64,000 nt of DNA, taken from the NCBI RefSeq assembly GCF_020991065.1, contig NZ_CP087710.1, positions 1,054,001 to 1,118,000 on the forward strand, written 5' to 3'. Source of the stretch: Nocardioides okcheonensis (GTDB lineage: Bacteria; Actinomycetota; Actinomycetes; Propionibacteriales; Nocardioidaceae). Every line of letters begins with the position of its first letter. Position 1 is the first letter of the stretch. Positions 2 through 57,962 of the stretch are shown here, piece by piece. The translations under genes were made by a program, and so were the position numbers. The notes below the pieces were generated by a model, which did no database searches, was not told the DNA's origin, and saw nothing but the letters and a program-made list of their open reading frames with translations.

Positions 2-1195
2 ACCGGTGTGCAGCTCGACTACGACGAGCAGGCGATGAACGCCGCCGTCTCCGGCGCCGGCTCGGTCCAGGGCTTCTACTCCGACGTCCCGCCGACCCTC
101 AACAACGAGATCCGGCGCCTGGCCGCGACCGTCACCGCAGACGCCCCGACGCGCTTCCAGAAGGCGCAGGCCCTGCAGCAGTGGTTCCGCGAGGACGGCG
201 GCTTCCGCTACGACAAGGCGCAGGTCGAGTCGGCGGGAGGCGGCGACGCCGACCTGCTGGCGTTCCTCGACGACCGGGTGGGCTACTGCGAGCAGTTCGC
301 CGCGTCCATGGCGATCATGGCCCGCGTCCTGGGCATCCCGAGCCGGGTGGCGGTCGGCTTCCTGAACCCCGAGCGCGCCACCAACGGCTCGTGGGAGTTC
401 TCCGCCCACGACCTGCACGCCTGGCCCGAGCTGTACTTCCCGGGCTCCGGCTGGGTGCGCTTCGAGCCGACGCCCCAGGACCGCGCCGGCTCGGTCCCCG
501 ACTACACCACGGCCGAGTTCGCCCCGGTCACGGAGTCGCCGACCCCCAGCGCGTCGCGGTCGACCGAGCTGCTGCCCGAGCGCGGCGAGACGCCCACCGC
601 CGACGCCGGCACCGCCGACGAGGAGGGCTCGAGCATCCCGTGGGTGCCGGTCCTCGCCGGCCTCCTCGGCCTGGTCGTGCTCGGCGCGCTCCTGATGAGC
701 CCGCGGCTGGTGCGGACCGCCCGCCGCCGCCAGCGCCTCGGCGGGGACATCGAGGACCTGTGGCGCGAGCTGCAGGACGTCACCCGCGACCTCGGCCACG
801 CCTGGCCCAACGGTCGCAGCCCTCGTCGTACGGGCGAGTGGCTCGGCCGCCTGCTCGCCCGACCGGAGCCCGGCAAGGACCGGCCCGACCGTCCGCGCCG
901 CGGCCGTGACCAGGCACCGGAGGCGGCGCAGGCCCTCGACCGGCTGGTGGCGGCGCTCGAGCGCAGCCGCTACGCCCGCGACCCCGAGTCCTACACCGCC
1001 GACCGGTTCCGGGCGGATGCCGAGCTCGTCGAGGAGTCGCTCGCTGCCGGCGTCACCCCGCGCGAGGCCCGCCGGGCCACCTGGTGGCCCGCCTCGGTCG
1101 TCGGCCTGCGCACGTCGCGGCGCGCGCGGTCGCGCGCGGCTGCCGCCTCCGCGGACCCCCAGTCGGCGCAGACGGTCGACGAGCTGGTCGGCTGA
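2..1195 (+). CDS. TgpA-type transglutaminase-like membrane protein, C-terminal part
   Basis: The gene starts before the window; the frame is open from base 2, so only the last ~397 codons are present. The extracytoplasmic transglutaminase core is intact: the catalytic Cys is in GYCEQFAAS (from about base 281) and the catalytic His in HDLHAWPELYF. The position of the usual acidic third residue falls in WVRFEPTP. A Ser/Thr/Glu/Pro-rich linker, one membrane helix (about bases 635-710) and an Arg-rich cytosolic tail follow. In actinobacteria this family usually follows MoxR and DUF58 genes near mraZ; those partners would lie left of the window (inference). Confidence 0.85.
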   Translation, partial: TGVQLDYDEQAMNAAVSGAGSVQGFYSDVPPTLNNEIRRLAATVTADAPTRFQKAQALQQWFREDGGFRYDKAQVESAGGGDADLLAFLDDRVGYCEQFAASMAIMARVLGIPSRVAVGFLNPERATNGSWEFSAHDLHAWPELYFPGSGWVRFEPTPQDRAGSVPDYTTAEFAPVTESPTPSASRSTELLPERGETPTADAGTADEEGSSIPWVPVLAGLLGLVVLGALLMSPRLVRTARRRQRLGGDIEDLWRELQDVTRDLGHAWPNGRSPRRTGEWLGRLLARPEPGKDRPDRPRRGRDQAPEAAQALDRLVAALERSRYARDPESYTADRFRADAELVEESLAAGVTPREARRATWWPASVVGLRTSRRARSRAAAASADPQSAQTVDELVG

Positions 1196-46217: not shown

Positions 46218-46961
46218 ATGGCGCGTCGTTCCGTAATCCTCACCCTGGCCATCATCACGGCCCTCGTGGGCACGATGCTGATCGTCCTCTACGTCCAGGG
46301 CATCGACAGCCGGGCCACCAAGGGCCAGGAGCTCGTCGAGGTCCTGGTCGCCAAGGACGTCGTCAGCGCCGGCGAGAGCGTCGCCGCTGCCGAGGAGGCC
46401 GGCAAGTTCGAGAAGAAGCAGGTGCGCCGCGAGGACCTCGTCCCGGGCTTCCTGTCCTCCTCCACGAGCGTCACCGGCCTCGTCGCGACCGGCAACATCT
46501 ACCCGGGTGAGCAGCTGATCGCCGACAAGTTCGGCAGCGTCGGCGACACCCAGAGCCTGGTCATCCCCGACGACAAGCTCGCCATGTCGGTCGAGCTCAC
46601 CGACCCCGAGCGCGTCGCCGGGTTCGTGAACCCCGGCTCCGAGGTCGCGGTGTTCGTGACCGTGAGCGACCCGAAGTCCTACACCCGGGTGCTGCTCACC
46701 CGCGTGACGGTGATCGGTGTCGGCCAGACCACGACGACGTCGCGGACCGTGACCGACCAGTCCGGCGCCCAGACGATCGAGGAGGTGCCCAAGACGATCC
46801 TCACCCTGGCGCTCAGCCAGAAGGAGACCGAGAAGCTCATCTGGGCCGACCGCTTCGGCGACCTGAACTTCGCGCTCCTGAGCGACAAGACCACCGTCAA
46901 CGACGAGAAGGGCGTCGACGCCCCGATCGTCGTCCCCGGTCTCCCGGCGATCGTCGGCTGA
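46218..46961 (+). CDS. cpaB: CpaB/RcpC family Tad pilus assembly protein
   Basis: 247 aa. N-terminal membrane anchor (residues 5-27, VILTLAIITALVGTMLIVLYVQG), an SAF domain (~40-100) and the RcpC/CpaB region (PDDKLAMSVELTDPERVAGFVNPGSEVAVFVTV). CpaB proteins form the periplasmic or extracytoplasmic part of the Tad machinery. The ATG at 46218 follows GAAGGA; the frame is open to 46038 but that part is non-coding leader. First gene of the Tad operon; tadZ follows after 5 bases. Confidence 0.9.
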   Translation: MARRSVILTLAIITALVGTMLIVLYVQGIDSRATKGQELVEVLVAKDVVSAGESVAAAEEAGKFEKKQVRREDLVPGFLSSSTSVTGLVATGNIYPGEQLIADKFGSVGDTQSLVIPDDKLAMSVELTDPERVAGFVNPGSEVAVFVTVSDPKSYTRVLLTRVTVIGVGQTTTTSRTVTDQSGAQTIEEVPKTILTLALSQKETEKLIWADRFGDLNFALLSDKTTVNDEKGVDAPIVVPGLPAIVG

Positions 46962-46966
46962 CCACC

Positions 46967-48208
46967 ATGACCACCATCCTGGAGACCGACTCCGGACAAC
47001 GGTCCATCCTGCAGGCCATGCTGCACGGCTCGACCGCCGTCGCCAGCGTCGCCGACCTCCACTCCCACGTCCAGGGCGCCGCCCACGAGTTCGCGGTCGT
47101 GATCGGCCCCGGCATCACCACGGGCGAGGCCACCGAGTTCGCCGAGTGGGCGCGGATCAACCGGCCCGACCTCGGCGTGATCCTGCTGCGCGACACCGTC
47201 GACGCCAACGCCCTCGCGATGGCCCTGCGCAGCGGGATGCGCGAGGTCGTCCAGAGCAAGGACCTCGCGGGCATCACCACCGCGGTGCAGCGCGCACGGA
47301 CCGTGGCCAGCGCCATCGGGCAGACCATGCTCGGCGAGGTGCAGGCCGCGGCCGAGGAGGCCAAGGCGCGCCTCGTCGCGGAGGCGGAGGCCGAGCGGGC
47401 CGCCGCCGAGGCGCCGACCGGCCGGCTGTTCACCGTCTTCTCCACCAAGGGTGGGGTCGGCAAGAGCCTGGTCGCGGTCAACACCGCGGTCGCGCTGTCG
47501 CAGAAGGGCCACCGCGTCTGCCTGGTGGACCTCGACGTCAACAGCGGCGACGTCGCGATCATGCTGCAGCTCTCCCCCAGCCGGAACGTCAACGACCTCG
47601 TCGCGTTCCGCGGCGGGATCGACCAGGGCGCGATCGAGTCGCTCCTGACGGAGCACTCCGAGCGGCTGTCCGTGGTGGCGGCGCCGGTGACCCTCGACTC
47701 CCCCGACCAGGCGTCCGGCGAGGAGATCGGCCAGATGCTCGACGGGCTCAAGGGACTGTTCGAGTACGTGGTCGTCGACACGTCCGGCGTCTTCGACGAC
47801 CAGGCGCTCGCCGCGCTCGACCGCTCGGACTCGATCATCCTGGTCGGCACCCTCGACATCCCCGCCCTCAAGGGGCTCAAGCTCGCCGCCAGCACGCTCG
47901 ACCTGCTCAACTTCTCCCGCAGCTCGTGGTCGTTCGTGCTCAACCGTGCCGACGCGAAGGTCGGCCTGACGCAGGCCGAGTACGAGTCGACGCTCGGCGT
48001 GAAGGCCGACGCCACGATGGTGTCCAGCCGCGAGGTGCTGGCCGCGGTCAACCGCGGGGAGGCACTGGTCACCGCCTTCCCGGGCAACGTCAACAGCAAG
48101 GCGCTCACGGCGTTCGCCGGCACCCTCGCGCAGGCACACGCCACCACCGACTCCCCCGCCCCCGCCACGGAACGCAAGGGTGGCCGTCTCCGCAAGAGGA
48201 AGGGCTGA
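46967..48208 (+). CDS. tadZ: TadZ/CpaE-like localisation ATPase
   Basis: 413 aa. Residues 1-110 form an atypical receiver-like domain (no clear phospho-Asp), an Ala/Glu-rich helix links (~122-150), then a MinD/ParA ATPase with deviant Walker A STKGGVGKS (159-167) and switch DLDVNSGDVAIML. Places the Tad secretion platform in the cell. C-terminus is basic (KGGRLRKRKG). Followed by tadA after one base. Confidence 0.92.
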   Translation: MTTILETDSGQRSILQAMLHGSTAVASVADLHSHVQGAAHEFAVVIGPGITTGEATEFAEWARINRPDLGVILLRDTVDANALAMALRSGMREVVQSKDLAGITTAVQRARTVASAIGQTMLGEVQAAAEEAKARLVAEAEAERAAAEAPTGRLFTVFSTKGGVGKSLVAVNTAVALSQKGHRVCLVDLDVNSGDVAIMLQLSPSRNVNDLVAFRGGIDQGAIESLLTEHSERLSVVAAPVTLDSPDQASGEEIGQMLDGLKGLFEYVVVDTSGVFDDQALAALDRSDSIILVGTLDIPALKGLKLAASTLDLLNFSRSSWSFVLNRADAKVGLTQAEYESTLGVKADATMVSSREVLAAVNRGEALVTAFPGNVNSKALTAFAGTLAQAHATTDSPAPATERKGGRLRKRKG

Positions 48209-48209
48209 C

Positions 48210-49646
48210 ATGAGCCTCACCGACCGACTCGCCGCGGCGTCGCGCACCCGCACGGCGCCCAGCACCCCGGGGAGCGAGGCTCCGGCCGCTCCCGCACCCG
48301 GCACCTCGCCGGCCAAGGTCCAGGAGTCCAGCGAGGCCAGCCGCCGTCGGGCCGCCGCACGCACCGGCAGCGACCCGCACAAGGACCTCAAGCGGATCGT
48401 GCACGGGCGGCTCGTCAGCAGCCTCGGCCCGACGCTGTACGACGCCCACCTGACCCAGTCGGACCTCGAGCAGCAGGTGCGGCTCGCGCTGCAGACCACG
48501 CTGGCCGAGGTCGACATGCCGATGTCGTCGGCCGACAAGTCCCGCATCTCCCAGGAGATCGCCGACGACATCCTGGGCTACGGCCCGCTGGAGCCGCTCC
48601 TGCGCGACCCGGACCTGTCCGAGGTCATGGTCAACACGTTCGAGGACATCTACGTCGAGCGCGGCGGCAAGCTGGTCAAGGTCGAGGCGACCTTCGCCGA
48701 CGAGGCCCACCTGCGGCGCACCATCGACAAGATCGTCAGCAAGATCGGCCGTCGCGTCGACGAGACCAGCCCGATGGTCGACGCCCGCCTGCCCGACGGC
48801 AGCCGTGTCAACGCGATCATCCCGCCGCTGGCGCTGGACGGCTCCAAGCTGACCATCCGCAAGTTCTCCGAGGACCCCTACACCGTCGAGGACCTGATCG
48901 GCTTCGGCACGCTCAGCCGTGCCTCCGCCGACCTGCTCGAGGCCTGCGTGCGCGGCCGGCTGAACATCCTCGTGTCCGGCGGCACCGGCGCCGGCAAGAC
49001 GACCACCCTCAACGTGCTGTCGTCCTTCATCCCCACGGACGAGCGCATCGTCACCATCGAGGACGCCGCCGAGCTCCGGCTCGTGCAGGACCACGTCCTG
49101 CGCCTGGAGTCGCGTCCGCCGAACATCGAGGGCAAGGGCGCGGTCACGATCCGCGACCTGGTGAAGAACTCCCTGCGCATGCGCCCCGACCGCGTCGTCG
49201 TCGGTGAGATCCGTGACGCCGCGGCCCTCGACATGCTGCAGGCGATGAACACCGGCCACGACGGCTCGATCTCGACCCTCCACGCGAACACCCCGCGCGA
49301 CGCGCTCTCCCGCCTCGAGACGATGGTGCTGATGGCGGGCATGGACCTGCCGGTGCGTGCCATCCGCGAGCAGGTGGCCAGCGCGGTCGACCTGATCATC
49401 CAGCAGACCCGCCTCAAGGACGGCACCCGCCGGATCACCGCGATCACGGAGATCGTCGGCATGGAGGGCGACATCGTCACCACCCAGGACGTGTTCCTGT
49501 TCGACTACAGCGCGGGCATGAACGAGCAGGGCAAGTTCAAGGGCGGCCTGGAGTCGACCGGCCTGCGGCCCCGGTTCCTCGAGCGGCTGGCCGACCACGG
49601 CGTGCACCTCAACCCGGCCGTGTTCACCGTCGGCGGGACCCGATGA
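48210..49646 (+). CDS. tadA: TadA/CpaF secretion ATPase
   Basis: 478 aa. Walker A SGGTGAGKTTTLN at about residue 257, Asp box and Walker B (RVVVGEIRD), and the His box GHDGSISTLHANTPRDALSRLE. An N-terminal ~95-residue extension is Ser/Ala/Pro-rich. Hexameric motor for pilus extension. ATG at 48210 is one base after tadZ and follows GAGGAAGGG. Confidence 0.95.
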   Translation: MSLTDRLAAASRTRTAPSTPGSEAPAAPAPGTSPAKVQESSEASRRRAAARTGSDPHKDLKRIVHGRLVSSLGPTLYDAHLTQSDLEQQVRLALQTTLAEVDMPMSSADKSRISQEIADDILGYGPLEPLLRDPDLSEVMVNTFEDIYVERGGKLVKVEATFADEAHLRRTIDKIVSKIGRRVDETSPMVDARLPDGSRVNAIIPPLALDGSKLTIRKFSEDPYTVEDLIGFGTLSRASADLLEACVRGRLNILVSGGTGAGKTTTLNVLSSFIPTDERIVTIEDAAELRLVQDHVLRLESRPPNIEGKGAVTIRDLVKNSLRMRPDRVVVGEIRDAAALDMLQAMNTGHDGSISTLHANTPRDALSRLETMVLMAGMDLPVRAIREQVASAVDLIIQQTRLKDGTRRITAITEIVGMEGDIVTTQDVFLFDYSAGMNEQGKFKGGLESTGLRPRFLERLADHGVHLNPAVFTVGGTR

Positions 49647-51538
49647 GGTCGACGACCCGCGGCGTCGCCGGCGTGCTCGCCGCGGCGCTCCTCGCCCTGT
49701 CGGCGGCATCGCCGGCACTCGCCGACGACGAGGTCACGATCGACCACGTCGAGACCGACCGCGGCACCGTCAGCCTGCTGGTGTCCACCGACGGCGTGCC
49801 CGACGGCACCACGGTGGAGCCGAGCCAGGTCTACGTCGAGCTCAACGGCGGCGCCGTGGAGTCCACGGCCAAGCTCGTCGACGCCGGCGACATCGACCGC
49901 ACGACGGTCATCGTCCTCGACGCCAGCAAGAGCATGCGCGGCCAGGGGAAGTTCGAGGCCGCCACCACGGCGATCAACGCGTTCCTCGACAGCGCACCCG
50001 AGGACGTCGCCATCGGCCTGGTCGCCTTCGCCGGCAAGGTCACCACGACGGTCGCGCCGACCATCGACCACGGCGACGTCCGCACCGCCCTCGGCGACCT
50101 GACCCTCGCCGCCGGCACCGGCGTCTACGACGGCATCGAGGAGGGTGTCACGCTCCTCACCGACGAGGGCTCGCGCAACCTGCTCGTCCTCTCGGACGGT
50201 GCCGACACCGGCAGCGCCACCACCCTCGACGTCGCCATCAACGACGCCAAGACCGCCGGCGTGGTCGTCGACGTGGTCTCCCTCGCGCAGGGCGCCGACA
50301 GCGAGGCCCTGGCCACGGTCGCGACGGAGACGGGCGGCTCGGTCATCCCGGCCGACCCCGCCGCGCTCACGTCGGTCTTCAACGAGCGCGCCGCGGCCCT
50401 CGACCAGCAGCTGCTGGTGACCTTCACGGCGCCCTACGGCAGCGGCGAGGACGCCAACATCGACGTGGTCGTCGAGGCCGGCGGCACGCAGTACCACGAC
50501 ACCGCCTTCGCCACGCTCGGTCCCGGCTTCGAGGTGCCCGACGTCGTCACGTCCGGCAAGGCGCTCGTCGGCGACTCGGGGATGCTGCTCGGCGCGGGCG
50601 CGCTCGCGATCGGGCTGTTCGGCCTCCTCGCGATCGCCCTGCTCGGCGCCGGCGACAACCGGTCCCAGTCGGTGCGCCAGCTCGAGGCCTACTTCAACGG
50701 CACCAGCGGCGCCGACCCGAAGAAGCGGCGCAAGTCGACCTCGAGCGACCTGAAGGGGTCGGCGGTGTCGGTGGCGAACCGCGTCGTCTCCCAGGACATG
50801 GAGACCCGCATCTCCCAGCGCCTGTCGGGCGCCGGGTCGGCCCTCACCGCCTCCGAGTGGGTGCTGGTGCACGTGGGCTGCGCGTTCGGCGCGGGGCTGG
50901 TGGGCTTCGTCATGGGCGGCTTCGCGATGAGCCTGCTGTTCCTGCTCCTCGGCGTGGTGCTGCCCTGGCTCTACCTGAAGTTCAAGCACGGACGGCGGCT
51001 CAGCGCGTTCAACGCCCAGCTCGCCCAGACCCTCGGCCTGATGGCCGGCGGCCTGCAGGCCGGCCTGTCGCTCCCCCAGGCGGTGGACACCGTCGTCAAG
51101 GAGGGGCACGAGCCGATGGCCGGCGAGCTGCGCCGCGCACTGGTCGAGCAGCGCCTCGGCGTCGACATCACCGAGGCGCTCGAGGGCGTCGGCGAGCGGA
51201 TGGAGAGCGACGACTTCAGCTGGGTCGTCATGGCCATCCGGATCCAGCGCGAGGTCGGCGGCAACCTGGCCGAGATCCTGCACACCGTGGCCGACACGCT
51301 GCGCGAGCGGGAGTACCTGCGCCGCCAGGTCAAGGCGCTCAGCGCCGAGGGCCGGCTCTCGGGCTACATCCTGACGGGCCTGCCGCCGCTGATCTTCTTC
51401 TACATGACGTTCGCCAACCCGGACTACGTGCGCCTGCTGTACACGACGGTCCCGGGCTACATCATCCTGGGCATGGCACTCTTCCTCCTGGGACTCGGTT
51501 CGTTCGCGATGGCGAAGCTCGCCACGGTGGAGGTGTGA
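49643..51538 (+). CDS. tadB: Von Willebrand A domain fused to TadB platform protein
   Basis: 631 aa. Residues 1-27 signal peptide (ends SPALA|DD). Extracytoplasmic vWA domain ~80-270 with complete MIDAS: DASKSM (93-98), Thr159 in AGTGVYDG and Asp185 in LSDGAD. Helix ~313-336, cytosolic linker, then TadB: helices ~408-445, the T2SSF cytosolic domain (~455-565) with LMAGGLQAGLSLPQAV and IRIQREVGGNLAEIL, and two C-terminal helices. TadB alone is usually ~300 aa. Start overlaps tadA stop (ATGA). Confidence 0.9.
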   Translation: MRSTTRGVAGVLAAALLALSAASPALADDEVTIDHVETDRGTVSLLVSTDGVPDGTTVEPSQVYVELNGGAVESTAKLVDAGDIDRTTVIVLDASKSMRGQGKFEAATTAINAFLDSAPEDVAIGLVAFAGKVTTTVAPTIDHGDVRTALGDLTLAAGTGVYDGIEEGVTLLTDEGSRNLLVLSDGADTGSATTLDVAINDAKTAGVVVDVVSLAQGADSEALATVATETGGSVIPADPAALTSVFNERAAALDQQLLVTFTAPYGSGEDANIDVVVEAGGTQYHDTAFATLGPGFEVPDVVTSGKALVGDSGMLLGAGALAIGLFGLLAIALLGAGDNRSQSVRQLEAYFNGTSGADPKKRRKSTSSDLKGSAVSVANRVVSQDMETRISQRLSGAGSALTASEWVLVHVGCAFGAGLVGFVMGGFAMSLLFLLLGVVLPWLYLKFKHGRRLSAFNAQLAQTLGLMAGGLQAGLSLPQAVDTVVKEGHEPMAGELRRALVEQRLGVDITEALEGVGERMESDDFSWVVMAIRIQREVGGNLAEILHTVADTLREREYLRRQVKALSAEGRLSGYILTGLPPLIFFYMTFANPDYVRLLYTTVPGYIILGMALFLLGLGSFAMAKLATVEV

Positions 51539-51539
51539 C

Positions 51540-52463
51540 GTGATCCTGTGGATCGGAGCCGGGCTGATCTTCTCGGCACTCGTCCTGTCCATGGCGATGA
51601 TCGGCGTGGTCAGCAAGGAGCGGCGCGGCGTCGCCCGCTCGATCGCCGCCATCCAGGCGATGAGCCAGACCACCCCCGACATGCTGCGCACGGAGCTCGA
51701 GCGTCCCTTCGCGGAGCGGGTGCTCGGACCGCTGGGCGACCAGCTCGTCGGGACCGGCCGCAAGATGGTGCGTGCCGACACCGCCCACAAGCTCGAGTAC
51801 CGCCTCAACGTCGCCGGCAACCCGCCCGGCTGGGACGCCAACCGGCTGATCGGCCTCAAGGTGCTCGGCCTCGCCGTCTTCGGTGGCCTCGGTTTCCTCT
51901 ACATCGCCGGGATGGGGTGGCCGTTCCCGCGGGTCGTGATCGCCACCGTCCTCGTGGCGGCCTTCGGCTACGTCCTGCCCAACGTGCTGCTCTACAACGC
52001 GGGCCAGAAGCGCGAGAAGCTGATGCGCAACGCGTTGCCCGACGCCCTCGACCTCCTGACGGTCTCCGTCGAGGCCGGCCTCGGCTTCGACGCCGCGGTC
52101 GACCGGGTGGCGCGCAACACCGAGGGCCCGCTGGCCTCCGAGTTCGCCCGCCTGCTGCAGGAGATGAACATCGGTGTCGGCCGGACCGACGCGATGCGCG
52201 CGATGGCCGAGCGGACCTCGCTCGACGACCTCAAGTCCTTCTGCCTCGCGATGGTCCAGGCCGACAGCCTCGGCATCCCGATCGGCCGCGTGCTGCGGAT
52301 CCAGAGCGCCGAGATGCGCACCAAGCGCCGCCAGCGGGCGGAGGAGAAGGCCCAGCAGGTGCCGGTGCGGATGATGATCCCGCTGGTGCTCTTCATCCTG
52401 CCGTGCCTGTTCCTCGTGATCATGGGCCCGGCGGCCATCCAGATCGCCGACACGTTCAAATAG
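51540..52463 (+). CDS. tadC: TadC type II secretion F-family protein
   Basis: 307 aa. N-terminal helix (1-23), two helices (~105-145), the T2SSF domain with LPDALDLLTVSVEAGLGFDAAV and a C-terminal helix (MIPLVLFILPCLFLVIMGPA). Second inner-membrane platform component. GTG one base after the vWA-TadB stop. Confidence 0.92.
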   Translation: MILWIGAGLIFSALVLSMAMIGVVSKERRGVARSIAAIQAMSQTTPDMLRTELERPFAERVLGPLGDQLVGTGRKMVRADTAHKLEYRLNVAGNPPGWDANRLIGLKVLGLAVFGGLGFLYIAGMGWPFPRVVIATVLVAAFGYVLPNVLLYNAGQKREKLMRNALPDALDLLTVSVEAGLGFDAAVDRVARNTEGPLASEFARLLQEMNIGVGRTDAMRAMAERTSLDDLKSFCLAMVQADSLGIPIGRVLRIQSAEMRTKRRQRAEEKAQQVPVRMMIPLVLFILPCLFLVIMGPAAIQIADTFK

Positions 52464-52469
52464 GGCCTG

Positions 52470-54035
52470 ATGTTCAGCTCCAGCGCCTCGGACGTGACCC
52501 CCTCCTACGGGGGGTCGCTCTACACGTGGCGGGTGACCACCGCGGTGCGCGTCTTCGGCCTGGCGCTGGCGTCGGGCATCGTGCTGTCGGACGAGCGGTC
52601 CGGGGTCACCGCGCCGCTGCTGGCGGCGCTCGTCGTGGTCGCCGTCGGCAGCGCCGTGCTCGACTGGTCACGCGCCACCACCCGCGCCGCGTGGGTGCCG
52701 CTGGCCGAGATGCTGCTGGCGGCGATCATGCTCGCCAGCGCAGGCGCCTCGCCCGGCCTCTACGCCTACCTCGCCGCGCCCCCGGTGGTGGCCGGGGTGC
52801 GCCACGGCGTCGTGACGGTCGTCAACACGGCGTTCGTGGGTGGGCTGGGCCTGCTCGCCGCCGTCGCCGGGTCGTCGACGCCCGATCCCCGACCCGAGCT
52901 CGTGGTCGCCGCCCCCTGGGTGCTGACCGGCCTCGGGGCGGGCCTGCTGGCGAGCTGGCAGTCGCGCTCGATCCGTGACGAGGACGCCCGCCGGGCGCCG
53001 TACCGGGCCGCCCACCAGCTCGTGGCCCAGCTGCACGGGCTGGCCCGGCGCCACCAGGTCGGCCTCGACACCGCCCAGCTGGCCGCGGACCTCGAGACCC
53101 GCCTGCGCCGCCAGACCGGGGCGACGGCGTCCGCGGTCTACACGGGATCGGTGGCCGAGGGGCTCGTGCAGGTGTCGTCCTACGGGGACGCCGGCTCGCT
53201 GGCCGAGCAGGTCGGGCGGCACGCCGACGCGAGGTCCCCGGGCGTACGGGTGCTGGCCATCCAGGGCACCGACGGCGGGCTCGGCTTCGTGGCGCTGTCC
53301 GGCGTGCTGCGCTGGAACGACGAGATCGCCGAGCAGGCCGCCGAGGTGACCGACAACTTCGCGCTGCGCATCGACACCGCCGTGCTCTTCGACGAGGTCC
53401 GCCGGATGGCGACGTCGGAGGAGCGCAACCGGCTGGCCCGCGAGATGCACGACGGCGTCGCGCAGGAGATCGTGGCCCTCGGCTACGTCGTCGACGAGAT
53501 CGAGTCGATCTCGGACGACCCCCAGACCCGCGAGCTCGCGGCCTCGCTGCGCCAGGAGATCACGCGGGTGGTGAGCGAGCTGCGCTACTCGATCTTCGAC
53601 CTCCGCCACCAGCTCAGCGACCACCGGCTGTCCGGCGCGCTCACCGAGCACGTGCGCGGTCTCAGCACCGGCACGGACCTGCAGGTGCACCTGAGCTTCG
53701 ACGAGTCCGGCAAGCCGCTGCCCCCGCACACCGAGACCGAGCTCCTGCGGATCGCGCAGGAGGCCATCAGCAACGTCCGTCGGCACGCCGGCGCCCAGAA
53801 CCTCTGGGTGGCCTTCTGCACCGACGGCGTCTCCCTCGACCTGCGGATCGAGGACGACGGCATCGGCAACGCCGCCCCGCGCGACCTCCACTGGGGCCTG
53901 CAGACGATGGCCGAGCGTGCCGCTGCCATCGGCGCCGCGCTCGAGGTCTGCGACCGCGACGGCGGCGGCACCCGCGTCCACCTGACCACCTCGCACTGCA
54001 CCACCTCCCCCCGTGAAGGAAGCCTGCGCCCATGA
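52470..54035 (+). CDS. NarL-type sensor histidine kinase of the Tad locus
   Basis: 521 aa. Five or six N-terminal membrane helices (~20-165), a GAF-like region (~180-300), HisKA_3 with NRLAREMHDGVAQEIVALGY, and HATPase with AISNVRRHAGAQ and RIEDDGIGN. Sits 6 bases after tadC and overlaps its regulator (ATGA), so it should be transcribed with the pilus genes. Signal unknown. Confidence 0.9.
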   Translation: MFSSSASDVTPSYGGSLYTWRVTTAVRVFGLALASGIVLSDERSGVTAPLLAALVVVAVGSAVLDWSRATTRAAWVPLAEMLLAAIMLASAGASPGLYAYLAAPPVVAGVRHGVVTVVNTAFVGGLGLLAAVAGSSTPDPRPELVVAAPWVLTGLGAGLLASWQSRSIRDEDARRAPYRAAHQLVAQLHGLARRHQVGLDTAQLAADLETRLRRQTGATASAVYTGSVAEGLVQVSSYGDAGSLAEQVGRHADARSPGVRVLAIQGTDGGLGFVALSGVLRWNDEIAEQAAEVTDNFALRIDTAVLFDEVRRMATSEERNRLAREMHDGVAQEIVALGYVVDEIESISDDPQTRELAASLRQEITRVVSELRYSIFDLRHQLSDHRLSGALTEHVRGLSTGTDLQVHLSFDESGKPLPPHTETELLRIAQEAISNVRRHAGAQNLWVAFCTDGVSLDLRIEDDGIGNAAPRDLHWGLQTMAERAAAIGAALEVCDRDGGGTRVHLTTSHCTTSPREGSLRP

Positions 54036-54685
54036 ACACCTCCGTCATGCTGGTCGACGACCACGAGCTGATCCGCCAGGGACTGGCGCGCGCGTTCGAG
54101 CGCGACGACGCGATGCACGTCGTCGGCCAGGCGGGCAGCGTCCACGAGGGGCTCGCGGTGTTCCGCGAGCTGCGCCCCGACGTCGTGGTCACCGACCTCC
54201 AGCTGCCGGACGGGCAGGGCCTCGAGATCGTGCGCGCGGTGCGGGCCGAGAGCGACACGGTGGGCCTGGTCGTGCTCACCATGCACGCGGGCGACGACCA
54301 GATCTTCGCGGCGATGGAGGCCGGCGCCTCGGCGTTCGTCGGCAAGGACAGCAAGTCCTCCGAGGTGGTGAGCGCCGCCAAGCACGCCGCCGTGGCACCG
54401 CGCACGTTCCTGTGCGCCGGCCTGAGCGCGGCGATGATGCGACGCGCCACCGCGCCCGCCGCGCCCCGCCTGTCCACCCGCGAGGAGGAAGTCCTCGCCC
54501 TCCTCGCGGAGGGTCTCGGGACCAGCGACATCGCCGGCCGGCTCTACCTCAGCGAGTCGACCGCGAAGACGCACATCACGCACATCTACCAGAAGCTGGG
54601 CGCCGCGAACCGGGCCCAGGCGCTGGTCACGGCCATGCGGATGGGCCTGCTCGACGGCGTCGCGTCGGGTCATCTGACGCGGTGA
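54032..54685 (+). CDS. LuxR/NarL-family response regulator of the Tad locus
   Basis: 217 aa. Receiver with VDDHE and phospho-Asp55 in VVTDLQLPD, LuxR HTH LSTREEEVLALLAEGLGTSDIAGRLYLSESTAKTHITHIYQKL. Overlaps the kinase gene (ATGA). Candidate regulator of the adjacent flp genes and the cpaB promoter, both of which carry TAGTCC/GGACTA repeats. Confidence 0.9.
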   Translation: MNTSVMLVDDHELIRQGLARAFERDDAMHVVGQAGSVHEGLAVFRELRPDVVVTDLQLPDGQGLEIVRAVRAESDTVGLVVLTMHAGDDQIFAAMEAGASAFVGKDSKSSEVVSAAKHAAVAPRTFLCAGLSAAMMRRATAPAAPRLSTREEEVLALLAEGLGTSDIAGRLYLSESTAKTHITHIYQKLGAANRAQALVTAMRMGLLDGVASGHLTR

Positions 54686-54858: not shown

Positions 54859-55050
54859 ATGATTGAGAAGCTGCAGTTCATGACGATCATGCTCGTCAAC
54901 GACATCAAGGCCAAGCGCGACGAGCGCGGCGCCACCGCCGTCGAGTACGGCCTGATGGTCGCCCTGATCGCCATCGTGATCATCGGCGCCGTCACCCTCC
55001 TGGGCGGCAACCTGAAGAGCCTCTTCAACAGCGCCGCGAGCAGCGTCTGA
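54859..55050 (+). CDS. flp1: Flp-type IVb pilin 1
   Basis: 63 aa. Short basic leader, then the Flp signature ERGATAVEYGLMVALIAIVI with cleavage after Gly (G|ATAVEYG) and the Glu/Tyr pair. Major pilin of the Tad pilus. ATG follows AAGGGGA. A separate start 173 bases after the regulator gene suggests its own promoter. Confidence 0.95.
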   Translation: MIEKLQFMTIMLVNDIKAKRDERGATAVEYGLMVALIAIVIIGAVTLLGGNLKSLFNSAASSV

Positions 55051-55073
55051 CGATCCGCACCCGTGCGGTTGTC

Positions 55074-55109
55074 GAGGGCCGGTGTCGTGTTCCCACGGCA
55101 CCGGCCCTC
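55074..55109 (+). terminator. Stem-loop after flp1
   Basis: GAGGGCCGGTG pairs with CACCGGCCCTC; the arms extend with small mismatches. May limit read-through so that flp1 is made in excess over flp2 and flp3. Confidence 0.6.
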
Positions 55110-55137
55110 CGTCATTCCACCCAGGAGGTGAACCCCC

Positions 55138-55350
55138 ATGTCCCTGCACCACCTCGCGGCCTTCCTGACCGCGACCCTGACCGCGGCCCTGACCCCGGCT
55201 GAGCGCTCCGACGACGAGCGCGGCGCCACCGCCGTCGAGTACGGCCTCATGGTCGCCCTCATCGCGGTCGTGATCGTCGGCGCGGTGTCGCTGTTCGGCC
55301 GCTCGGCCAGCTCGCTGTTCTCGGTGCCGGCCAGCGTCTTCAGCCGCTGA
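55138..55350 (+). CDS. flp2: Flp-type IVb pilin 2 (divergent)
   Basis: 70 aa. Longer hydrophobic leader (LAAFLTATLTAALTP), then DERGATAVEYGLMVALIAVVI and a diverged tail (LFGRSASSLFSVPASVFSR). Strong AGGAGGTGAA ribosome site. Possibly a minor pilin. Confidence 0.92.
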   Translation: MSLHHLAAFLTATLTAALTPAERSDDERGATAVEYGLMVALIAVVIVGAVSLFGRSASSLFSVPASVFSR

Positions 55351-55418
55351 CCCGCCGCGCCAGCCGCACCACCCGACCCGCGCCCACGTCGCGACCCTCC
55401 CTCGGAAGGATCCGTCCC

Positions 55419-55610
55419 ATGCTCGATGCCCTGCACCTCCAGATGATCAAGATCGCCCACGACGCGCGCACCAGGCGCGACGAGCGTGGCGCCACGGCCG
55501 TCGAGTACGGCCTGATGGTCGCCCTCATCGCCATCGTGATCATCGGCGCCGTCACCCTGCTCGGCGGCAACCTGAAGAGCCTCTTCAACAGCGCCGGCAG
55601 CAAGGTCTGA
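55419..55610 (+). CDS. flp3: Flp-type IVb pilin 3
   Basis: 63 aa, nearly identical to flp1 from residue 20 onward; the leader differs (MLDALHLQMIKIAHDARTR). Ribosome site GGAAGGA. Likely a recent duplication of flp1. Confidence 0.94.
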   Translation: MLDALHLQMIKIAHDARTRRDERGATAVEYGLMVALIAIVIIGAVTLLGGNLKSLFNSAGSKV

Positions 55611-55715: not shown

Positions 55716-56672
55716 TCAGCCGGCGAGGGCGGCCAGCCCGGAGCGCCACCGTCGGGTGAGCTCGGCGACCGGGAGGCCCGCGCGCGCCAGGGCCGCGTCG
55801 ACCGGCTCACCCGCGGCGGCGGCCTCGTAGAGCCGGACCAGCCCCTGCTCCCCCAGCGCCTCGGCCACCACGCGGCAGCCCAGCCACGCCTGCTCGTAGC
55901 GCGCCTGGAGGTCGCCCGCGCGGGTGTCGAAGTCCGCCGCCTCCGGCAGGCGCCCCGGCACGCCGTCGGCGCGCGCCGCGGCGATCGCGCGACCGAGCGT
56001 GGTGCGGTCGGGCAGCCGGACGTCGCGCAGCGCGACGTAGTCGGCGAAGCCCTCGAGGAGCCAGGTGTCCATCGGCGTGCGGGTGGCGTCGGTGGCCAGG
56101 TGGACCAGCTCGTGGCTCATCACGACCTGCGCGCCGGCACGACGCAGGCCCGCCGTGACCTCCGGGTTGACGAAGACGTGGACCGGCGCCGCAGCGCCCG
56201 TCCCGTCGCCCGCGGCGGTCGTCACCGCCGCGATCGCGGCGTACGTCCCGGGCTCGGCGCCGAGGGTCTCGTCGAGGTCCGCGGCGCTCGCCGGCACCTC
56301 CACCACGACGGGTGCCGACCAGGCCGGCAGCACCCGGCGCACCACGCCGACACCCGCCACGGCCCGGCGCGCCACGTCGTCCGCCAGCCGCTGCGGGCCG
56401 TCGAGGAGGACCAGCACGCCCGGGGCGCGCGCCACGGACAGGCCGCCGCGCAGCCACAGCGGGAGCCGTACGCCAGCGGACCCGGTCGGCGTCCGGAAGC
56501 CGGTGACCGCGAGACGGTCGCCGTCGGGGACCAGCCCGACCAGCACCTCCGCCGACGACACCCCGGGGTCGTCGCGACCCAGCCGCCAGTCGAGCTCGGC
56601 CACCGCCGTCCAGGACCCGTCGCTCGCGACGGTGCCCGACTGGTCGACGTAGCGGAGGGCGACCCGGTCCAC
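55716..56672 (-). CDS. Zinc metalloprotease-like protein (HExxH, peptidase MA-like)
   Basis: 318 aa from the first usable codon. The metal motif HELVHLATDATRTPMDTWLLEGFADYV carries HExxH and the downstream Glu (E in LLEGFADY), as in peptidase MA-like proteins. The coding pattern continues upstream of 56672 without a start codon to a TGA at 56868-56870, while a signal peptide lies further upstream in another frame. So this is the 3' part of a gene that seems to be frameshifted. Confidence 0.7.
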   Translation of the reverse strand: MDRVALRYVDQSGTVASDGSWTAVAELDWRLGRDDPGVSSAEVLVGLVPDGDRLAVTGFRTPTGSAGVRLPLWLRGGLSVARAPGVLVLLDGPQRLADDVARRAVAGVGVVRRVLPAWSAPVVVEVPASAADLDETLGAEPGTYAAIAAVTTAAGDGTGAAAPVHVFVNPEVTAGLRRAGAQVVMSHELVHLATDATRTPMDTWLLEGFADYVALRDVRLPDRTTLGRAIAAARADGVPGRLPEAADFDTRAGDLQARYEQAWLGCRVVAEALGEQGLVRLYEAAAAGEPVDAALARAGLPVAELTRRWRSGLAALAG

Positions 56673-56972: not shown

Positions 56973-57962
56973 TCAGCCAGGGCGGACCGCGCCGACGTAC
57001 GGCATCGAGTAGAGCCCCGAGACCGTGACGCCCGCACCGGGGTTGGCGGCGTGCACGATCATGCCGTTGCCGATGTACATGCCGACGTGGCTGATCGGGC
57101 TGTAGTAGAAGACCAGGTCGCCCGGCTGCAGGTCGCTCGCGGCGACGTGCGGGCCGGAGCCGTACTGGGCCGAGGACGAGTGCGGCAGCGAGACGCCGGC
57201 CTGGGCCCAGGCCCGCATCGTCAGGCCGCTGCAGTCGAAGGCGCTCTCGCCGGCGGCGCCGTAGACGTAGGCGTCACCGACCTGGGCCATCGCGTACTGG
57301 ATCGCCGCGGCCGCGCGGCCCGAGGCGGGCACCGCGCTCGGCATCCGGCTCACGCCGCTGCGCGAGGCGAGCAGGCGCTCGCGCTCCTCGGCCTCGAGGT
57401 CGGCGAGCAGCTCCTTGGCCTCGGCGAGCTTGTCGTCGACGGTCTCCTTCTCGGAGCTGAGCTCCTCGGTGAGGTCGGCGATCTCGTCGGCGCGGTCGTC
57501 GGTGGCCTCCTGGCGGATCTCCAAGGCCTGCAGCTCGGTGTCGTAGTCGGACAGCAGCGAGGACTGCAGGTCGTTGAACGACGACATGGTGGAGAGGGTG
57601 TCGAGGAACGAGCCCGGGTCCTCCGAGACGACGATCTGGCCGACGGTCGAGATGCCCTCGCCCTCGAGCTGTCGCACGACGGCGTCGGAGACCTGGTCCC
57701 GCACGGCGTCGAGGCGCTCGTCCTGGCGGGCCTGGTCGGCCTTCAGGCCGGCGAGGTCCTGGCGCAGGTCGGCGAGGTCGAGACGGGCGTCGTGGAGCCG
57801 CTCCTGCGCGGCCTCGGCCTCGTGGTAGAGGCGGTCGACGCGAGCCTTGACGGTCTTGATGTCGGGGTCGGCCTGGGCGGGCGTCGCAGGCACGAAGGCG
57901 ATGGCAGCGATCGCGGAGAGACCAAGTGCGGTCGCGCCAGCACGCTTGCGGGGGTGAGCCAC
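56973..57962 (-). CDS. NlpC/P60 peptidoglycan endopeptidase with coiled-coil N-terminus
   Basis: 329 aa. Signal peptide (1-31, PAQA|DP), a long coiled coil (~35-200) like RipA/RPF-type regulators, then NlpC/P60 (~215-329) with catalytic Cys244 in DCSGLT, His292 in SHVGMY and third residue His304 in VHAAN. Cleaves stem peptides during growth or division. Expression is controlled by the ydaO-type riboswitch upstream. GTG start follows GAGGAG at 11 bases. Counterpart of Rv2190c. Confidence 0.93.
   Translation of the reverse strand: MAHPRKRAGATALGLSAIAAIAFVPATPAQADPDIKTVKARVDRLYHEAEAAQERLHDARLDLADLRQDLAGLKADQARQDERLDAVRDQVSDAVVRQLEGEGISTVGQIVVSEDPGSFLDTLSTMSSFNDLQSSLLSDYDTELQALEIRQEATDDRADEIADLTEELSSEKETVDDKLAEAKELLADLEAEERERLLASRSGVSRMPSAVPASGRAAAAIQYAMAQVGDAYVYGAAGESAFDCSGLTMRAWAQAGVSLPHSSSAQYGSGPHVAASDLQPGDLVFYYSPISHVGMYIGNGMIVHAANPGAGVTVSGLYSMPYVGAVRPG

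Follow-up and report, generated by a model that had tools for sequence, protein, structure and literature searches.

The 64,000-nucleotide window analyzed here (positions 1,054,001 to 1,118,000 of the forward strand of Nocardioides okcheonensis contig NZ_CP087710.1) contains a Tad (Flp, type IVc) pilus locus in which the platform protein TadB is joined, within one gene, to a von Willebrand A (vWA) domain with a metal ion-dependent adhesion site (MIDAS). The genes are ordered CpaB-CpaE-TadA-[vWA-TadB]-TadC, followed by a histidine kinase (HK), a response regulator (RR), and three Flp pilins. The fusion gene and the end of TadA share four bases (49643-49646), across the ATG of the one and the stop codon of the other, and TadC starts one base after the fusion gene ends. 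With Flp pilins, TadA, a TadB and a TadC of one T2SSF domain each, CpaB/RcpC, and CpaE/TadZ, the locus holds the components that define a Tad system, and its gene content predicts that it produces a pilus. The three Flp_Fap pilins are the only ones found in the whole 4.47-Mb genome. The prepilin peptidase TadV is represented by a single Peptidase_A24 match at 960.6 kb, outside the locus, and minor pilins of the TadE/TadG type are encoded elsewhere in the genome (as a pair at 3.488 Mb and also in three additional loci).

The first-pass annotation, made from the letters of this DNA, had described a signal peptide and a MIDAS-complete vWA domain covalently joined to TadB, and this description stands. 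Translation of 49643-51538 (+) gives 631 residues with no internal stop codon, and Pfam places VWA_2 (residues 88-186, 2e-14), VWA (89-242, 2.4e-11), and T2SSF (465-589, 7.2e-22) in the same protein. One T2SSF domain, flanking transmembrane (TM) helices, and an adjoining TadC identify the C-terminal part as TadB; matches of unfused TadBs to the 631-residue protein begin at residues 311-318, with one at 365. The vWA domain has the DxSxS motif, the T, and the D of a complete metal site, from which metal-dependent ligand binding is the predicted function. No PF13400 match was found in the protein by Pfam, so it lacks the combination of pilin-like module and vWA domain that marks TadG/CpaL. The linker between the vWA part and TM1 is 11 to 35 residues long (median, 21) among 63 aligned fusions (alignment A4, which combines 15 search proteins with 48 fused proteins out of the 69 from named loci that could be used). 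Fold and topology are predicted: lysine and arginine number 7 in residues 335-365 versus 1 in residues 292-310, and this charge bias around the TM1 helix would place the vWA domain outside the membrane, in agreement with the extracellular position first proposed. A fold search with the fusion returned listed matches that all fell on the vWA part.

Table 1. Features of the vWA-TadB gene and of the surrounding Tad locus (window coordinates; aa, amino acids; pLDDT, predicted local distance difference test)
Feature	Coordinates	Strand	Basis or remark
CpaB/RcpC	46218..46961	+	TIGR03177 above cut-off; start codon picked by eye
CpaE/TadZ-like ATPase	46967..48208	+	AAA_31 and MinD-type models, position; below every NCBIfam cut-off
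TadA/CpaF ATPase	48180..49646	+	T2SSE 3.7e-67
vWA-TadB fusion gene	49643..51538	+	631 aa plus stop; single open frame; Pfam VWA_2, VWA, and T2SSF in one protein
Signal-peptide-like N-terminus, residues 1-28	49643..49726	+	Hydrophobic window 7-28; A-L-A site by eye
Ectodomain, residues 30-291	49730..50515	+	vWA domain (86-256) between flanking beta-strands
MIDAS D93, S95, S97, T159, D185	49919..50197	+	D-S-S-T-D in 60/63 aligned fusions
Flexible linker, residues 292-310	50516..50572	+	Model pLDDT <50 at 297-307
TadB TM1, residues 311-334	50573..50644	+	Helix in predicted model
T2SSF domain, residues 465-589	51035..51409	+	Pfam PF00482
TadC, second platform protein	51540..52463	+	T2SSF 1.1e-21
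Sensor histidine kinase	52470..54035	+	HisKA_3; next after TadC in Nocardioides-type loci
LuxR-type response regulator	54032..54685	+	Response_reg and GerE
Flp pilin 1	54859..55050	+	Flp_Fap
Flp pilin 2, divergent copy	55138..55350	+	Flp_Fap 3.8e-11
Flp pilin 3, close to pilin 1	55419..55610	+	Flp_Fap 2e-16

Searching for vWA-T2SSF fusions beyond this genome, as the first-pass annotation had proposed, revealed them to be widespread in Actinomycetota. In a search over about 5.8 billion proteins, the window's protein gave 497 matches and an alignment of deep members gave 692; the best 120 listed of each all carried both vWA and T2SSF, and the listed fusions were nearly all 586 to 663 aa long, with one of 895. 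Source names for such proteins include tight adherence protein B, type II secretion system F family protein, and VWA domain-containing protein. A sample of 396 Actinomycetota genomes had matches at 1e-10 in 217, and full-length fusions, among the matches listed, in at least 58 genomes of 33 family codes; the figure of 58 is a lower bound because certain TadBs with the match range of an unfused protein turned out to be fused (e.g., L166). Within the genus, 100 of 118 sampled genomes had a match at 1e-60, of which 89 were full-length fusions and 11 covered the TadB part only; two of the genomes with a fusion held an unfused form as well. The protein searches and both genome samples therefore rule out a fusion special to this genome. 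A missed stop or frameshift between the domains, the error that could have undone the earlier description, is likewise ruled out, as the same single open frame recurs across many species. The fusion is thus real, widespread, and no product of sequencing error.

The vWA domain keeps close company with TadB: in 80 named loci plus the window, it was joined to TadB in 75 of 76 vWA-bearing open reading frames (ORFs). Some loci of the whole collection are present twice, under a named and an unnamed handle (e.g., L125/L180). On one metagenome contig (L128:5136-6533 (+) and following), the vWA ORF is separate from the TadB ORF, either as a natural split or by frameshift. The order CpaB-CpaE-TadA-TadB-TadC was retained in most loci uncut by contig ends, whether fused or unfused.

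The vWA domain is also a separable module, since the same syntenic locus occurs in the genus with and without it. Thirteen fetched genus loci (L178-L190) have the order CpaB-CpaE-TadA-TadB-TadC-HK-RR-Flp, 12 of them with a FACL gene upstream, and none contains a vWA ORF as judged by a profile built from the fusions. Eleven of these loci come from genomes without a listed fused copy. A signal-peptide-like leader precedes TM1, with no vWA domain between, in 3 of the 13 unfused TadBs (L179, L187, and L190), and these remnants read as loss of the vWA domain by deletion; the case for loss is drawn solely from these leaders, looked for in the 13 loci, as quick trees gave no direction. A tree built from TadB alone, with 78 fused and 40 unfused rows (118 of 121, identical rows having been dropped), required a minimum of 15 state changes, 10 of them forced by well-supported branches, and the best tree of the 73 Nocardioides-type rows, a set that also excluded rows lacking a nearby histidine kinase or with less than 6.5 kb downstream, needed 11. 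Among the loci without the module, L161 carries two Flp-TadE-TadG-CpaB-CpaE-TadA-TadB-TadC sets in tandem.

Repeated absence in place, together with the leader remnants, would be expected of a relic, i.e., an old fusion of little function that is slowly being lost. This reading is very unlikely in light of the constraint on the domain. In comparisons with three relatives, the ratio of nonsynonymous to synonymous substitution rates (dN/dS) was 0.23, 0.27, and 0.39 for the vWA core and 0.09, 0.20, and 0.20 for the TadB part, indicating that the vWA domain is under purifying selection, weaker than that on the motor part. Across the deep divergence sampled by the 63 aligned fusions, the MIDAS D-S-S-T-D was retained in 60 (the exceptions being L104 and L117 with DTTSD and L146 with DSTAA), and the MIDAS positions were 95 to 100% conserved, versus a median of 46%.

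The fusion had been proposed as a possible minimal or alternative Tad design, which can be read as the adhesion or sensing vWA domain of TadG being shifted to the platform and TadG itself replaced. In favor of such a replacement, the Caulobacter vWA domain sits in the TadG orthologue CpaL, according to the relevant passages of PMC12607857, and the 36 TadG-like proteins from fused contexts (35 from fused loci and the orphan of this genome) all had PF13400 and none had a vWA match at an E value of 0.01. The statement that TadG is not found held for this locus and failed for the chromosome, where 3,487,717-3,490,199 holds a TadE gene together with a TadG-like one of 598 aa that has no Pfam vWA domain. 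Many fused loci in the wider set also have TadE and a TadG-like gene directly upstream of CpaB, at odds with a Tad system that does without them. Nor does the fusion seem to take over a domain that TadG has otherwise: the 18 TadG-like proteins from unfused loci (set A3, 18 of 19 TadG-like ORFs) all had PF13400 and likewise lacked a Pfam vWA domain (0 of 18). L128, with its vWA and TadB on separate ORFs, was for that reason left out of both this set and the trees.

Co-occurrence tells the same way. Of the 78 fused TadBs, 26 had a TadG-like gene at a distance of 9 kb or less, against 14 of the 40 unfused ones (contig ends limiting both counts), which is no drop with fusion. In the Nocardioides-type loci, TadG was observed beside 15 of the 53 fused TadBs and beside none of the 20 unfused TadBs, the reverse of the pattern that replacement predicts. 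With ancestry removed by independent pairs, neither set showed a significant trend between TadG and the fusion. Homologues of the orphan TadG occurred in 13 of 118 genus genomes, all 13 with a full-length fusion, and most fused genomes had no homologue (counts uncorrected for ancestry); in two genomes (G429 and G455), the homologue lies about 10 to 13 kb from the fusion. TadG presence, TadG domain content, and the whole-genome search thus leave the replacement of TadG unsupported, and we give it very little credence. Minor pilins may instead be supplied in trans here, by analogy with Micrococcus luteus, in which both tad clusters are needed according to part of PMC4322843; actinobacterial Tad systems without identifiable minor pilins are also described in a passage of PMC6668835.

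The genome has four vWA_2 matches, none within a Tad-domain gene. Apart from the fusion, the vWA match nearest to a Tad domain is at 3,496,940, about 6.7 kb beyond the orphan TadG, with groEL-like DNA between. Judged by eye, its open frame looks cytosolic, with no secretion signal, and we take it to be of the CoxE type; it was set aside.

We propose that the vWA domain is an accessory part at the outward side of the Tad motor, where it would serve in docking or regulation in a MIDAS-dependent way, a reading that we hold about as readily as we doubt it. The module would be attached through the outward-facing N-terminus of the TadB platform subunit, whose T2SSF part would work with TadC and be driven by TadA. 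In a prediction presented in part of PMC12019362, CpaF turns three CpaG-CpaH heterodimers. The pilus exit would then be surrounded, just outside the membrane, by several vWA heads (three if that trimer applies here), each on a tether of some 20 residues. Through its MIDAS metal, each head might bind an acidic group of some partner located in the inner part of the wall, for instance CpaB, wall material, or a minor pilin of the TadE/TadG type, and such binding would adjust pilus initiation, anchoring, or retraction rather than enable assembly itself. Assembly seems not to need the vWA domain, going by the genes alone, because related loci keep the rest of the locus without it.

The short tether bears on two other readings. 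The vWA domain could be a true surface adhesin for outside ligands, with TadB as a mere membrane anchor; it had first been described as an extracellular adhesion or sensing domain. A Gram-positive wall is deeper than such a linker can reach. At 11 to 35 residues in the aligned fusions, the linker would hold the domain near the membrane and make direct adhesion beyond the wall unlikely, and the joining of the domain to TadB in nearly all vWA-bearing ORFs also counts against an adhesin; we regard this reading as quite improbable. Alternatively, the domain could tether the motor to peptidoglycan or to CpaB, in this way making up, in a monoderm, for the lack of an outer-membrane complex. Its position, its short linker, and its wide spread in Actinomycetota all suit a tether, yet syntenic loci of the same genus manage without the domain, and a fixed tether would resist the platform, which turns in the rotary model set out in part of PMC12019362. 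A tether is therefore unlikely, if less so than an adhesin.

Several observations weigh against an accessory docking or regulatory role. The whole ectodomain is less constrained (dN/dS, 0.22, 0.30, and 0.51 against the same relatives). The predicted structure is a monomer with a predicted template modeling score of 0.48, so that it does not fix where the vWA domain sits relative to TadB. In two cases among the 13 unfused loci (L189 and L190), the unfused locus is a second copy and its genome holds a fusion as well; for L190, that genome is 7% contaminated. The recurrent absence of the module could also mean that it does little. Finally, two or more Flp genes were found in 42 of 53 fused versus 7 of 20 unfused Nocardioides-type loci (raw counts), a link that may hint at a pilin-specific role and that was not significant once ancestry was removed: independent pairs on well-supported branches (4 pairs) averaged 2.9 for, 0.1 against, and 0.9 showing no difference, with a median p of 0.25, and in a second set of rows (9 pairs) the corresponding means were 3.4, 0.1, and 5.4, again with a median p of 0.25.

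Beyond the fusion, the locus and genome hold further genes of possible relevance to pili. In the tandem Flp pilins (54859-55610), the mature parts of copies 1 and 3 are nearly identical, and copy 2 diverges towards the C-terminus. Beside them lies a putative metallopeptidase at 55716-56672 (-), with an HELVH motif and a weak Peptidase_MA_2 match below cut-off (E 0.0098); a relative occurs in 10 loci of the unfused set L178-L190 (13 loci). The locus ends with an NlpC/P60 (RipC-like) peptidoglycan hydrolase at 56973-57962 (-), with a relative in 12 of those 13 loci, which possibly opens the wall for the pilus. The genome has four T2SSF gene pairs; the three outside the window (L032, L033, and L034, at 690, 1591, and 3110 kb) are accompanied by TadE-like genes, and no Flp_Fap or vWA_2 match was found in these three loci.

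Surface-contact signaling by Tad pili and the reversal of direction by their single motor are posed as open questions in parts of PMC12607857 and PMC12019362. A vWA domain fused to the platform is a candidate site for a direct action of binding or tension on the motor, and relatives with the same locus minus the domain are natural controls, making its role directly testable. At its furthest, the idea would be that the Tad motors of many Actinomycetota bear MIDAS vWA heads in a ring on the platform. Such a ring would be a clutch at the base of the pilus, gated by ligand or force and acting directly on the motor, not a tip sensor as proposed for CpaL, and some lineages would switch it off by in-place deletion of the module; in this extended form, we consider the idea rather doubtful.

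We found no published vWA-TadB fusion in the literature searched, a result that is not proof of absence, as most subscription papers were outside its scope. The parts consulted of PMC7716237, PMC10757668, PMC9430717, and PMC12008871 have vWA and TadB on different proteins; the single von Willebrand passage in PMC6916266, which deals with monoderm type IV pili, concerns S. sanguinis PilB; and neither vWA nor von Willebrand occurs in the main text of PMC4322843 or PMC6668835. Database entries called tight adherence protein B or VWA domain-containing protein, compared by name and architecture, have the same architecture. SpaC and Mfa5 are vWA adhesins of other pilus types, not platform proteins. 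The vWA-TadB architecture is thus widespread, modular, and undescribed in the literature searched, and is a variant of the Tad platform rather than a minimal Tad system.

Among known systems, the fusion shares with TadB/CpaG of Tad pili the T2SSF domain, the predicted TM layout, and the slot between TadA and TadC, and its TadB part is 43 to 54% identical to the unfused TadBs of the genus. It differs from an ordinary TadB/CpaG by about 300 extra residues before TM1, comprising the signal peptide, flanking beta-strands, and MIDAS vWA domain. The Micrococcus luteus tad-1/tad-2 system is likewise an actinobacterial Flp pilus, with its parts over two loci that are both needed, yet there it is TadB and TadC that are reported as one fused ORF (as given in part of PMC4322843). 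The nearest known case, from the passages of PMC12607857 concerned with it, is TadG/CpaL of Caulobacter, also a Tad component with a MIDAS vWA domain outside the membrane; the vWA domain of CpaL is carried on a pilin-like module predicted to lie at the pilus tip, whereas that of the fusion is carried, without PF13400, on the motor platform.

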